Source of the DNA: Clostridia bacterium
Lineage (GTDB): Bacteria; Bacillota; Clostridia; Oscillospirales; Acutalibacteraceae
DNA length: 57,254 nucleotides
NCBI GenBank assembly: GCA_017407755.1
Contig: JAFQVY010000017.1
Span: 1-57,254, forward strand
Direction of reading: 5' to 3'
Positions 46,173 to 51,475 of the stretch are shown here, piece by piece. Each line of letters begins with the position of its first letter. Position 1 is the stretch's first letter. The notes below the pieces were generated by a model that worked only from the letters and a program-made list of their open reading frames with translations, made no database searches and was not told where the DNA came from. The position numbers and the translations under genes are program-made.

Positions 46173-47339
46173 GTGGAGTATGAATCCGCAAAACAAGCCG
46201 CCCAGCGTTTAGGTGTTACTGTTCGTGCGGTGCAAAAATGGGCAAATGAGGGCAGACTTAAGGGTGCCTACAGGTTAGGCAGGGAATGGCTTATTCCTTT
46301 AAATGCTTTTCCCTCTGATAAGCCAATAGAAGAAAAACCGACTGCTCATCAGCTTATGCCCTTGCTTACATTAAGCTTTGTACCGGGTTACTGTAAAGAG
46401 CTTATCGAAAGCATTGAAGACAGCGACGACAGAGCTATTGCCGTTGCCGAATATAATTACTATAAAGGCAGACCTCAAAGTGCCATTGAGGTTGCCGAGC
46501 TTTACCTTAATCACTCTGACATTGCCCTTTCGCTTTCGGCGAATTTTATATATTCCTTTGCAAATCTTAATTCAGGCAAATCCCAACTTGCACGGTTAGG
46601 TCTTGAAAACATCAGTAGGCTGGTTAACAGAACCCTTAAAAATGAAAGTGACAAAAAGCTTAGAGCCTATGCGGTTTTAATAGGTTGTTCGGTTTCTACT
46701 TTGTTGCATCAGAACGTGCAGGATTTGCCGGATATTGAAAGCGTAGTTTCTGACCTGCCAAAGGGTCTTAAGGTTTTTGCGGCATATATTATGGTACACA
46801 ACGCCTACCTTAATAAGGAATTTGGCCGCGGAGTAGGAATTGCAGACGGAGTGCTTGCTATAAAGGACTCCGATTACCCTGTGCCGTCCTTGTATTTAAA
46901 GCTTATGAAATGTGTTTGCCTTATGAATCTTAAGGATTCTCAAGGTGCAAAAGAGGCATTTAATCAGATAAACCGCCTTGCTCTCAGTGAAAAGTTTTAC
47001 CAGCCCTTTGTAGAGCATCACGGACTTTTGCAGGGTATAGTTGAGGCTGAAATCAAAAAAAGCCACGCTGAGGCTTATAAGGAAATTGTCCAGATGGTTA
47101 AGGATTTCAGCAAAGGTTGGCGAACAATCCACAACGAGCTTACCGAAAGCTCGGTTACAGTGTACCTTACCACCACCGAATTTGCCATTGCAATGCTTTT
47201 CAACCGCAATTGGTCGGTTAAAGAGATTTCTTCTCACATGGGTATTTCTCCCCGAATGGTAAAGCATCACCTCTCAATAATTTACGAAAAATTAGATGTT
47301 TCCAACCGCGAGGAGTTAGGCCGATTCCTACTAAAATAA
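46173..47339 (+). CDS. Regulator with N-terminal excisionase-type HTH and C-terminal LuxR HTH
   Basis: The 388-residue protein has two DNA-binding domains. The first (residues 1-45; SAKQAAQRLGVTVRAVQKWANEGRLKGAYRLGREWLI is its span, with the Trp/Gly pattern of excisionase or MerR-like HTH) is followed by about 270 residues of TPR-like helices. A LuxR/GerE HTH closes the protein (SVKEISSHMGISPRMVKHHL). MalT, a LuxR-type regulator of maltose genes in enterobacteria, also pairs a helical repeat region with a C-terminal LuxR domain. The gene directly follows the maltodextrin operon, so control of it is plausible but unproven. The GTG start lies behind AAAGGAG. Confidence 0.75.
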   Translation: MEYESAKQAAQRLGVTVRAVQKWANEGRLKGAYRLGREWLIPLNAFPSDKPIEEKPTAHQLMPLLTLSFVPGYCKELIESIEDSDDRAIAVAEYNYYKGRPQSAIEVAELYLNHSDIALSLSANFIYSFANLNSGKSQLARLGLENISRLVNRTLKNESDKKLRAYAVLIGCSVSTLLHQNVQDLPDIESVVSDLPKGLKVFAAYIMVHNAYLNKEFGRGVGIADGVLAIKDSDYPVPSLYLKLMKCVCLMNLKDSQGAKEAFNQINRLALSEKFYQPFVEHHGLLQGIVEAEIKKSHAEAYKEIVQMVKDFSKGWRTIHNELTESSVTVYLTTTEFAIAMLFNRNWSVKEISSHMGISPRMVKHHLSIIYEKLDVSNREELGRFLLK

Positions 47340-47341
47340 AT

Positions 47342-47375
47342 AAACGCCTTCCAAAAGGAAGGCGTTTGCTTATTT
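47342..47375. terminator. Bidirectional terminator between regulator and metA
   Basis: A perfect 11-bp stem (AAACGCCTTCC / GGAAGGCGTTT) with an AAAA loop, followed by a T-rich stretch. Confidence 0.8.
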
Positions 47376-48296
47376 TATAGACTCGATTTCGTCGATATTG
47401 TAGGGAGTTGTCTGGTAAACAAAGTAGTTAAGCCAGTTTGAGTAAAGCAGGCTTGAATGGCTTCGCCACTTGATAACGGGGTCTTTGGTTTCGTCGTCAT
47501 TGGGAAAGTAGTTTTTAGGAAGCTCAATTTCCTTGCCTGAATTTTTGTCTCTCAGATACTCCTTTTTAAGGGTATCGCGGTCATATTCGGAGTGACCTGT
47601 AATGAAAATCTGTCTGCCCTTTTTGGTAGAAATGGCATAAACGCCTGTTTCTTCGGAAGATGAAAGGATTTTAAGCTGGGGGATTTTCTCAATATCTTCC
47701 CGTCTTACTGTGGTGTGGCGTGACTGAGGCACCCAGAATTCGTCGTCGGAGCCCCTGAAAAGCATTGAGCGCTTATAGTCGAGGGTATGCTTGAATATAC
47801 CGAAAAGCTTCTTGGGAAGGGGGTACTTTTTAATGCCGTAATGGTAGTAAAGTCCCGCCTGTGCACCCCAGCAAATATGAAATGTGGAGGTAACGTTTGT
47901 CTTTGTCCATTCCATAATTTCGCAAAGCTCGTCCCAATACTCAACCTCTTCAAACTCAAGATGCTCAACAGGAGCACCCGTGATTATCATACCGTCAAAC
48001 TTTCTGTGCTTTATTTCGTCAAAGGTTTTGTAAAAGCTTAAAAGGTGCTCGTAGTCAACGTTTTTTGACTTGTGAGTAGCGGTGTGAATAAGCTCAACGT
48101 CCACCTGCAAGGGGGTATTTCCCAAAAGCCTTGCAAGCTGAGTTTCGGTTTCAATCTTTGTGGGCATCAAGTTGAGAATAACAATCTGCAAAGGGCGGAT
48201 ATCCTGAGTAAGAGCCCTTGTTTCGGTAATGGCAAAGATGTTTTCCTCATATAAAGTTTTAGTAGCAGGAAGCTCGTTAGGAATTTTAATTGGCAC
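47370..48296 (-). CDS. metA: Homoserine O-acetyltransferase (MetA family)
   Basis: The 308-residue enzyme activates homoserine for methionine synthesis. The catalytic Cys is C142 in HICWGAQAG, with H235 and E237 in TGHSEYD. Residue 111 is Glu (GAPVEHLEF). In this family Glu111 goes with acetyl-CoA and Gly with succinyl-CoA, so acetylation is predicted despite the family name homoserine O-succinyltransferase. It fits the adjacent metY, which uses O-acetylhomoserine. It is second in the metY-metA operon, 17 bp behind metY. Confidence 0.95.
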
Positions 48297-48313: not shown

Positions 48314-49597
48314 TCAGATTTGTGCTAATGCGTTTTCAATATCAGCAATAAGGTCTTCTGCACCCTCAATACCGCAGGAAAAACGAACCAAATCGGGAGA
48401 AATGCCTGCGGCGGCAAGCTCTTCGTCGTTCATCTGTCTGTGGGTAGCACTTGCAGGGTGCAAACAGCAGGTACGTGCATCTGCAACGTGGGTTTCAATA
48501 GCGGCAATTTTAAGGTTCTTCATAAATGTTTCGGCAGCGGCTCTTCCGCCTTTAACGCCGAAAGATACTACGCCGCAACCGCCATTAGGCATATATTTTT
48601 TGGCAAGTTCAAAAGACTCGTCGCCCTCTAAATGGGGGAAGCGTACCCAAGCAACCTTGGGGTGGTTTTTAAGATATGTTGCAACTGCAAGACCGTTTTG
48701 GCAGTGCTGGCGCATTCTTACGTGCAGGCTCTCTAAGCCCATATTGATGTAAAAAGCGTGCTGAGGCGACTGGATACAGCCAAAGTCTCTCATAAGCTGA
48801 GCAGTTGCCTTTGTGATGTAAGCACCCTCTAAGCCAAATCTTTCTGTGTATGTCACGCCGTGATAGCTTTCGTCGGGAGTGCAAAGACCGGGGAATTTGT
48901 CGGGGTATTTTGTCCAGTCAAATTTTCCTGAGTCAACAATACAACCGCCAACGGAAACGCCGTGGCCGTCGATATACTTTGTGGTGGAGTGAATAACAAT
49001 ATCAGCACCCCATTCAATAGGACGGCAGTTAACGGGAGTAGCAAAGGTGTTGTCAATAATAAGGGGAACGCCGTGGCTGTGAGCAGCATTGGCAAACTTC
49101 TCGATATCAAGGACAACTAAAGCAGGGTTTGCAATAGTTTCGCCGAAAAGTGCCTTTGTGTTAGGCTTGAATGCGGCGTTAAGCTCACCTTCAGAGCAGT
49201 CGGGAGCAACAAAAGTAAAGTCGATACCCATTCTTTTCATGGTAACGGCAAAAAGGTTATATGTGCCGCCGTAAATTGCAGAGGAAGCAACAATGTGGTC
49301 TCCTGCACTTGCAATATTAAAAATGCTGAAAAAGCTTGCAGCCTGACCGGAGGAAGTAAGCATTGCGGCACTTCCGCCCTCAAGCTCGCAAATCTTCTTT
49401 GCAACCAAGTCGTTGGTGGGGTTTTGGAGCCTTGTATAAAAATAACCCTCTGCCTCTAAGTCGAAAAGCTTGCCCATTGCTTCGCTCGTTGCATATTTAA
49501 AGGTTGTGCTCTGCACAATTGGAATCTGGCGGGGTTCGCCGCTTTCAGGTGTATAACCGCCCTGAACGCATTTGGTGTCGATACTGAAGTTACTCAT
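48314..49597 (-). CDS. metY: O-acetylhomoserine sulfhydrylase
   Basis: The 427-residue PLP enzyme of the Cys/Met metabolism family makes homocysteine from O-acetylhomoserine and sulfide. The PLP-binding Lys lies in [11 protein letters not shown], and [13 protein letters not shown] and IDNTFATP are the usual cofactor contacts. Length and motifs fit MetY rather than the shorter cystathionine enzymes. TAAGGAGG precedes the ATG. Upstream lies a leader with a Met/Cys-rich short ORF and a terminator. Confidence 0.95.
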
Positions 49598-49615: not shown

Positions 49616-49655
49616 AAAATAAGAAAAGGCAGAAACCCAAATGGGTATCTGCCCT
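49616..49655 (-). terminator. Intrinsic terminator (attenuator) in the metY leader
   Basis: On the minus strand GGCAGATACCC pairs with GGGTTTCTGCC (one mismatch, ATTT loop), followed by TTTTCTTATTTT. It lies between the leader peptide and metY, so transcription must read through it for methionine genes to be made. An upstream hairpin (about 49654-49698) pairs the end of the leader ORF with a GTTTTTTGAGG stretch that abuts this stem. Confidence 0.8.
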
Positions 49656-49681
49656 CAAAAAACAGCCTAATCCGAAGATTA

Positions 49682-49741
49682 TCAGTTTTTGAAGGCACAG
49701 GTGCACATCATCATATTGTAGTTTAAATATAAACTTTTCAT
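49682..49741 (-). CDS. Leader peptide of the metY-metA operon
   Basis: A 20-codon frame encodes MKSLYLNYNMMMCTCAFKN. It has AGGAGG (49754-49749) seven bases before its ATG and lies just behind a consensus promoter. Three Met codons in a row followed by Cys-Thr-Cys, before an intrinsic terminator and a methionine biosynthesis operon, is the classic layout of amino-acid attenuation by ribosome stalling. Stalling at these codons would leave the later CTTCAAAAAC free to pair downstream and weaken the terminator; finishing translation would allow termination. Expression of the peptide is inferred. Confidence 0.75.
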   Translation of the reverse strand: MKSLYLNYNMMMCTCAFKN

Positions 49742-49769
49742 AAAAATGCCTCCTGCCTAAATTAAACTA

Positions 49770-49798
49770 ATTATAATGCAATAACCTGTCTGTGTCAA
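49770..49798 (-). promoter_or_regulatory. Promoter of the metY-metA operon
   Basis: On the minus strand, TTGACA (49798-49793), a 17-bp spacer and TATAAT (49775-49770), a full consensus match. The leader peptide start is about 29 bp downstream of the -10. Confidence 0.85.
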
Positions 49799-49927: not shown

Positions 49928-51475
49928 ATGTTTGTTAAAATCCTTTTTATCCTGCTTTTTTTGGTGCTTACCATCGGAATCGGTATATATAGCCGAAAAA
50001 AAGCAACTGATGTAAACGGATTTGTTTTAGGCGGCAGAGCAGTAGGCCCTTGGCTTACGGCGTTTTCTTTCGGTACATCTTACTTTTCTGCCGTTATTTT
50101 TGTAGGCTATGCAGGTCAGTTTGGCTGGAACTTCGGTCTTGCCTCTACTTGGATAGGTCTTGGTAATGCCCTTATCGGCTCCTATCTTGCTTGGAAGGTT
50201 TTAGGAAGACGTACAAGGGTTATGACTCAGCACTTAGGAAGTGCTACAATGCCCGACTTTTTTGAAAAGCGCTATGACTCAAAGGCTCTTAAAATTGTTG
50301 CCTCGGCTATTGTGTTTATTTTTATGATACCTTACACTGCCTCTCTTTACAATGGACTTTCAAGGCTTTTTGAAATGAGCTTTAACGTTCCTTACTGGGT
50401 TTGTGTTGTGGTTATGGCGTTGGTTACGGCAATGTATGTTGTGCTTTCGGGCTATATGGGCACAGCCTTAAACAGTGCGGTGCAGGGCGTTATAATGCTT
50501 GTGGGCATAGTTGTAGTTGTTTTCTCTGTACTTAATGTAAACGGCGGCTTTAAGGAAAGCGTAAGACTTCTTTCTGAGGTTACTACAGACACCGTATCTC
50601 AAGGCGGATTTACCTCCTTCTTCGGACCTGACCCCGTGGCACTTATAGGCGTTGTGCTGCTTACTTCCTTGGGTACGTGGGGACTTCCTCAGATGATTGG
50701 TAAGTTTTACGCCATTAAAGACGAAAAAGCCATTAAGACAGGCACAATCGTTTCTACAGTATTTGCAGTTATCGTTGCAGGCGGTTGTTACTTCTTAGGC
50801 GGATTTGGCAGAATTTTTATGACACCCGAAGAAGTTGCAGAAGGCGGCTTTGACTCAATTGTTCCTTCAATGCTTTCTCAATTAGGCGACGTAGTAATTG
50901 CCCTTGTAATTATGCTTGTGCTTGCGGCTTCTATGTCAACACTTTCTTCTTTGGTGCTTACATCAAGCTCCACCCTTACTCTTGACTTTTTAAATCCCAT
51001 TCGCGGCGGCAAAATGAAGGAAGAAAGCAAAATGCGTTTTATGCGTTTGTTTATTATTTTCTTTATTGTTGTTTCTGCTTTGATTGCAATTGTGCAGGCA
51101 AACTCAAAGGTTGCATTTATTACCGACCTTATGGGTATTTCTTGGGGAACAATGAGCGGTGCTTTTTTAGGCCCCTTTATGCTTGGCCTTTACTTCAGGC
51201 GTGCCACAAAGCCTGCTGTGTGGGCAAGCTTTGTTTTCAGCGTACTCTTTAATGTTACATTTATGGTTTTCAAGCTTTCAGGCAACATTTCTGTTTTGCC
51301 CAAGCTTTTACAGGCTTCTTCAAACGTAGGTGTTATAGCAATGATTATGGGAATTGTGCTTGTAATTATTATTAGCCTTTTTACTAAGAAGCCTGATGAA
51401 GATGCAGTCAATGCAAAGTTTGCCTGCTACGATAAAAAGGTTACGGTTTCGGCTAAAACCAGCCTTGAAGATTAA
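49928..51475 (+). CDS. Sodium:solute symporter family transporter
   Basis: The 515-residue protein has about 13 helices and the look of the SSS family (GFVLGGRAVGPWLTAFSFGTSYFSAV at the first helices, the SGYMGTALNSAVQG loop, MSTLSSLVLTSSSTL near the Na site). It is first in an operon with iorAB, paaK and an ACT protein, 14 bp before iorA. It therefore probably moves an aromatic amino acid, keto acid or aryl acid with sodium. The substrate is inferred from context only. GAAAGAAGAGG is the ribosome binding site. Confidence 0.85.
   Translation: MFVKILFILLFLVLTIGIGIYSRKKATDVNGFVLGGRAVGPWLTAFSFGTSYFSAVIFVGYAGQFGWNFGLASTWIGLGNALIGSYLAWKVLGRRTRVMTQHLGSATMPDFFEKRYDSKALKIVASAIVFIFMIPYTASLYNGLSRLFEMSFNVPYWVCVVVMALVTAMYVVLSGYMGTALNSAVQGVIMLVGIVVVVFSVLNVNGGFKESVRLLSEVTTDTVSQGGFTSFFGPDPVALIGVVLLTSLGTWGLPQMIGKFYAIKDEKAIKTGTIVSTVFAVIVAGGCYFLGGFGRIFMTPEEVAEGGFDSIVPSMLSQLGDVVIALVIMLVLAASMSTLSSLVLTSSSTLTLDFLNPIRGGKMKEESKMRFMRLFIIFFIVVSALIAIVQANSKVAFITDLMGISWGTMSGAFLGPFMLGLYFRRATKPAVWASFVFSVLFNVTFMVFKLSGNISVLPKLLQASSNVGVIAMIMGIVLVIIISLFTKKPDEDAVNAKFACYDKKVTVSAKTSLED

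Follow-up and report, generated by a model that had tools for sequence, protein, structure and literature searches.

The region upstream of metY in the window (the whole stretch of DNA that was analysed, 57,254 nt) raises the question of how transcription of a methionine operon is controlled in this bacterium. The genes metY (48314–49597, encoding O-acetylhomoserine aminocarboxypropyltransferase; TIGR01326, 558.9 bits, cut-off 495.1) and metA (47370–48296, encoding homoserine O-acetyltransferase; NF047918, 503.1 bits, cut-off 460.5) are located on the minus strand, preceded on that strand by elements which an earlier note had recognised as a consensus promoter, a short open reading frame (ORF) with a good ribosome binding site and a terminator. 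All three were confirmed. The promoter (TTGACA-N17-TATAAT, 49770–49798) matches the σ70-type consensus at 12/12 positions, and a Shine-Dalgarno sequence (AGGAGG, 49749–49754) is located 7 nt ahead of the ATG of the leader ORF (MKSLYLNYNMMMCTCAFKN and stop codon, 49682–49741), which contains three Met codons (codons 10–12, 49706–49714) that we propose as the sensing codons. The predicted intrinsic terminator (AGGGCAGATACCC-ATTT-GGGTTTCTGCCTT with a U-rich tail, 49621–49655) was defined from the sequence and by pairing count, with the AGGGCAGATACCC/GGGTTTCTGCCTT hairpin at 49655–49626 consisting of 12 pairs with one internal U-U mismatch, followed by TTCTT; this hairpin was not listed by a simple consensus terminator scan. 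The leader peptide was also compared with NCBIfam, and matched 0 families.

A search of the leader with Rfam showed no family reaching its gathering score, and the seven matches obtained at a relaxed E-value were all far below the cut-offs. Covariance models of the SAM-I riboswitch (RF00162) and the T-box (RF00230) gave no credible match at the metY-metA leader, as the earlier note had anticipated from the sequence, and Rfam detected nothing in 39 further stretches upstream of metY. Both sensors are present elsewhere in the same genome, with one SAM-I match on contig C16 just before metK (TIGR01034, 574.6 bits), and seven T-box matches, five above cut-off and none at metY. These T-boxes precede pheS, cysE, trpB and thrS (each over its NCBIfam cut-off), as well as a 2-isopropylmalate-synthase-like and two acyl-CoA-ligase-like genes, for which the best matches were below cut-off. 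Among this and related genomes, SAM-I was found in 13 of 14. The cell thus contains other sensing systems, which are not located at metY.

The alignment of regions upstream of metY homologues, proposed as a check in the earlier note, did yield a conserved short ORF with Met codons in 12 genomes of the genus. Across 161 genomes of the genus, a DNA search detected 15 matches, of which 12 (that of the window included) were leaders directly before metY, and the remaining three (L045, L046 and L048) look like chance matches. Promoter, ORF and hairpin are kept in 12/12 leaders, along with a run of two or three Met codons, and each leader has TTGACA and TATAAT separated by 17–18 nt, a purine-rich Shine-Dalgarno sequence, and an open frame with ATG start and putative ribosome binding site between promoter and metY. 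A covariance model built from the 12 leaders (R1) found the same 12 genomes of the genus (E 3.3e-20 or better) plus three marginal matches, while the only strong match was the genome's own both in 320 genomes sampled from the family (four marginal) and in 394 genomes sampled from the order (one marginal). In these searches, which for family and order covered samples and applied stricter filters at the expense of weak matches, the leader turned up in a single genus. The seven marginal matches in genus and family (E 0.005 to 0.025) were loci lacking a leader before metY, and none of the ATGATG sites displayed for the marginal match in the order (L262) extended to three consecutive Met codons. 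In pattern searches, ATGATGTGYACNTGY was present in 3/100 genomes of the genus and ATGATGATGTGYACNTGY in the own genome alone among 398 in the family; a scan of genome contigs with ATGATGATGTGYACNTGY returned 100 stretches with the leader motif in four (L066, L116, L122 and L126), which are identical in sequence to L039, L036, L038 and L037, respectively. The leader is carried by a small group of gut Clostridia.

As a control, the regions upstream of metY at 69 loci were searched for ORFs of 6–40 codons within 250 nt, with two loci (L185 and L206) dropped for being too short. A short ORF with two adjacent internal Met codons was present in 0/67 of these other regions, which include two from close relatives without the Met ORF (L169 and L170). 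Judged by sequence, the conservation of the leader before metY therefore exceeds chance (12 species versus 0/67 control regions). The claim that the Met and Cys codons are beyond chance hence stood for the Met run; the Cys-Thr-Cys sequence, which includes a second Cys at codon 15, occurs in 5/12 leaders and was rejected as a conserved motif.

Eleven of the leaders have three adjacent Met codons and one (L047) has two, so that codons for the product amino acid of the operon form a run before metY-metA. The distance from the last Met codon to a downstream GCC is 12 nt in 12/12 leaders, whereas start codon and GCC are separated by 45 nt in 11 leaders and by 42 nt in one, which has one Met codon fewer. 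Apart from this Met codon missing in L047, neither the Met run nor GCCTTCA[AG]A varies among the 12. The peptides are of three types: MKSLY[LV]NYNMMMCTCAFKN (five leaders), an MY-type with MMMC.S, MMMLCS or MMCRS (five leaders) and an MY-type with MMMRRS (two leaders). Residues 2–9 differ between these sub-groups (for example MKSLYVNYN, MYINYEKTH and MYAIFTNSY); codons 2–9 keep frame and length with a variable sequence, and the differences per codon position (232, 212 and 280) suggest a weak third-position excess. A Cys codon is located between the Met run and GCC in 10/12 leaders, directly after the last Met codon in nine of these and one codon later in L049, and is absent from L041 and L042 (MMMRRSAF). 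Met codons are therefore the constant part of the peptide and Cys the less constant part, suggesting that cysteine is secondary at most as a signal.

The presence of a Met run within a short conserved peptide could also be accounted for by nascent-peptide arrest, in which the ribosome would be stalled by the peptide it is making, in combination with SAM or a different ligand. Ligand-sensing stalling in a methionine-pathway gene is exemplified by plant CGS1, which counts in favour of such arrest. However, the variation of residues 2–9 between sub-groups argues against a role for the peptide sequence, and pairing of GCCUUCA could account for the AF[KR] conserved after the Met run; we regard arrest as the least probable of the explanations considered and as very improbable.

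The pairing partner of the ORF end became apparent when the leader was examined for alternative hairpins, a further check proposed by the earlier note; this analysis identified an antiterminator competing for the 5′ arm of the terminator. The sequence GCCUUCA[AG]AA at the end of the ORF is complementary to UU[UC]UGAGGGC, the last bases of which belong to the terminator 5′ arm. From alignment columns and pairing counts, the 5′ strand of this antiterminator (GCCUUCAAAA, 49687–49696, minus strand) is located within the end of the ORF, and its 3′ strand (UUUUGAGGGC, 49651–49660, minus strand) overlaps the terminator 5′ arm, and as predicted from these positions the antiterminator and the terminator cannot form fully together. 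Over the 12 leaders, 119 of 120 antiterminator cells are paired, versus 31.6–75.2% when the partner is slid by 1–3 columns, and 140 of 144 cells are paired in the terminator, which is followed by the U-rich tail. When each leader was shuffled 500 times at the dinucleotide level, 0–21 of the shuffles reached the observed length of complementarity between ORF and arm. Covariation was not significant, with one antiterminator pair changing on both sides, as in 302/500 shuffles, and no terminator pairs doing so among the 12 leaders, and was set aside as proof of the helices.

Several stretches of the leader are invariant at the nucleotide level, which would also be expected of a metabolite riboswitch (for SAM, methionine or homocysteine) with the ORF being incidental, and SAM riboswitches do control methionine metabolism in several Firmicutes lineages according to the available text of a survey (PMC3766115). 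The invariant blocks, however, correspond to the Met codons and to both of the competing helices, the frame and length of codons 2–9 are maintained, and the sole change in length among the leaders removes one Met codon. As no Rfam family matches the leader of the window or those of nine relatives (L037 and L043 being outside the scan), we consider a riboswitch highly unlikely at this position.

The geometry of the leader was assessed by folding the transcript up to the terminator 5′ arm with the ribosome footprint kept unpaired. With the A-site at any internal Met codon, the antiterminator was complete in 12/12 leaders (10 pairs; nine in L049), whereas a ribosome at the stop codon left 0 antiterminator pairs in 12/12. 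When the ribosome was moved codon by codon with the footprint edge at +12, the last Met codon was the last to leave the full antiterminator in 12/12 leaders, with 5–7 pairs left at the codon that follows. The position of this limit depends on the edge, as +9 shifts it one codon on and +15 one codon back. In these modelled pre-terminator footprint scans, the availability of the antiterminator thus appears to depend on the position of the ribosome.

The same scans bear on whether the leader senses cysteine besides or instead of methionine, via the Cys codon after the Met run. In the nine leaders with Cys directly after the last Met, a stall at that codon leaves 6–7 antiterminator pairs with the +12 edge and all 10 with +9, and a cysteine signal would make sense for MetY, which requires reduced sulfur. 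Conversely, stalling at the later Cys of L049 leaves 0 pairs with +12, as does stalling at codon 15 in the five leaders with a second Cys, where the ribosome covers the antiterminator; two leaders lack a Cys codon at this position altogether, and cysE of the same genome is located behind a T-box match. Cysteine sensing is thus improbable to our judgement, if somewhat less so than the two preceding alternatives. Of the attenuation by methionine and/or cysteine put forward in the earlier note, the methionine part stood, being represented in every leader, while the cysteine part held only partially, for the 10/12 leaders with a Cys codon between the Met run and GCC, and did not extend to the second Cys.

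Equilibrium folds of the complete leader gave a mixed prediction. When the ribosome was placed at the last Met codon, the antiterminator was complete in 8/12 leaders and 4/12 were hybrids, whereas a stall at the first Met codon resulted in the terminator only in 7/12, hybrids in three and the antiterminator in two. Free full-length RNA showed a complete antiterminator in 1/12, a hybrid in 7/12 and the full terminator alone in 4/12, while free pre-terminator RNA contained the antiterminator in 12/12 minimum free energy folds. Because of these mixed full-length folds, the model requires that the antiterminator forms first, which the order of transcription allows. A protector hairpin of the trp type, a feature that attenuators need not all possess, was not seen in folds of the 12 leaders.

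Comparison of the leader sequences gives good support to attenuation through a translated leader, and it is likely that the element is a ribosome-mediated transcription attenuator of metY-metA, which reads the supply of charged Met-tRNA. From the observed parts, their conservation, the helix competition and the fold geometry, we infer that the leader is translated, that ribosomes stall within it, that transcription terminates in vivo and that methionine is the signal. When methionine is plentiful, the ribosome would reach the stop codon and mask GCCUUCAAAA, allowing the terminator to form. When methionine is scarce, the ribosome would stall at codons 10–12 with its leading edge just short of GCC, leaving GCCUUCAAAA free to pair with UUUUGAGGGC and so remove the terminator 5′ arm, and with this arm sequestered RNA polymerase would continue into metY-metA, the methionine-making genes downstream of the leader. 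Transcription-translation coupling is considered weak in Bacillus subtilis, which counts against the attenuation model; a Met attenuator offers a way to test whether the coupling between ribosome and RNA polymerase in these Clostridia is close enough to permit control by a leader peptide.

Methionine is a special case among amino acids, as a lack of it should already prevent translation of the leader from starting. The leader may perhaps read both methionine tRNA pools, with either a stall at an internal Met codon (elongator) or a failed start (initiator) leaving the antiterminator free, although we put this forward tentatively and regard it as doubtful. Only a ribosome completing the peptide would then shut the operon, and the lack of a trp-type protector hairpin could be an adaptation to an amino acid that is needed for initiation. 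This is supported by the folding of free pre-terminator RNA into the antiterminator in all leaders, and opposed by the terminator alone or the hybrids that predominate in free full-length RNA.

Leader-peptide attenuators of amino acid operons are represented by trpL, hisL, leuL and thrL. The metY leader is similar to these in having a short ORF with tandem codons for the product amino acid, a terminator and an antiterminator before a biosynthetic operon (as described for His in the available text of PMC9413887), and differs in using Met codons, in the direct pairing of the ORF end with the terminator arm, and in that no protector of the trp type, which would cause termination when the leader is untranslated, was seen. 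Within the Firmicutes, leader-peptide attenuators have been reported in separate lineages for His (PMC2965389, PMC9413887) and for Leu (PMC5794164); these share mechanism class and phylum with the metY leader but concern different amino acids and different operons. In Streptomyces lividans, the metL leader proposed upstream of the methionine operon metNIQ likewise has Met and Cys codons in a short ORF, and is called an attenuator by its authors; in the text available from that report, metL differs by belonging to an actinobacterium and a transporter operon, by its leaderless transcript, and by the lack of a typical Rho-independent terminator noted by the authors (PMC8079986). Short ORFs with sulfur amino acid codons also precede sulfur-metabolism operons in Mycobacterium and other bacteria, as the Cys leader peptides of cys operons, but these have Cys runs and no conserved terminator, and the same source, as available, reports no conserved RNA structure upstream of methionine operons in Actinobacteria (PMC1262725). 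The SAM-I riboswitch and the Met T-box also control methionine genes by early termination, and neither matches metY-metA. In the portion available of a 2013 survey of Rfam motifs, the amino acid attenuators covered were His, Leu, Thr and Trp only, with Firmicutes methionine metabolism assigned to SAM riboswitches and, in Lactobacillales, Met T-boxes (PMC3766115), and the available text of a paper on methionine regulation in Proteobacteria contains neither "leader peptide" nor "attenuat" (PMC4239095). There was no Met leader-peptide attenuator in Firmicutes among the literature matches listed, which were restricted to open-licence papers and do not establish absence from print. The attenuator class is classical, while the combination of Met specificity with a terminator and an antiterminator, for this lineage and operon, appears to be new.

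Relatives without the leader allow for an estimate of its history. MetY was present at E 1e-100 or better in 158/161 genomes of the genus, and among the matches listed it was at least 84% identical in 14 genomes (the identity for G227 resting on a partial match), 12 of which have the leader. Two genomes, G263 and G275 (loci L169 and L170), retained promoter and hairpin upstream of metY while the Met ORF is gone. In a tree of MetY and MetA with 13 rows and two outgroups, in which G227 was not included, G263 and G275 are sisters (92/90) and belong to a five-member group (97/97), itself part of one with eight members (100/98). As they are nested inside the leader-bearing group, one loss of the leader is the simplest account, and would fit this tree. 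At L169, an ATGTTCT could by eye pair with AGAACAT around the terminator 5′ arm, as a possible different switch.

In a related genus, a T-box precedes metY (L003, 2851–3098, minus strand; Rfam 103.8 bits), so sensors at metY have differed between lineages. Locus L013 resembles this T-box case by eye, and is below the reporting cut-off. Given that the genome contains SAM-I and T-boxes as well, a full attenuator based on Met codons suggests that the sensor was exchanged at this one operon.

The gene order metY-metA was kept in 12/12 fetched relatives (ten with and two without the leader). Divergent from the leader is a sodium/solute symporter gene (49928–51475, plus strand), which is adjacent in 11/12 fetched relatives, the twelfth (L250) stopping at a contig edge, and genes downstream of it resemble by eye indolepyruvate oxidoreductase subunits and phenylacetate-CoA ligase. 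The window itself starts inside a 23S rRNA gene (RF02541, 1–947, plus strand). On the other side of the operon, a gene running towards metA (46173–47339, plus strand) has an excisionase-like N-terminal domain and LuxR-type C-terminal matches, and homologues of this gene (58–68% identical) follow metA in 4/12 fetched relatives (L243–L246).
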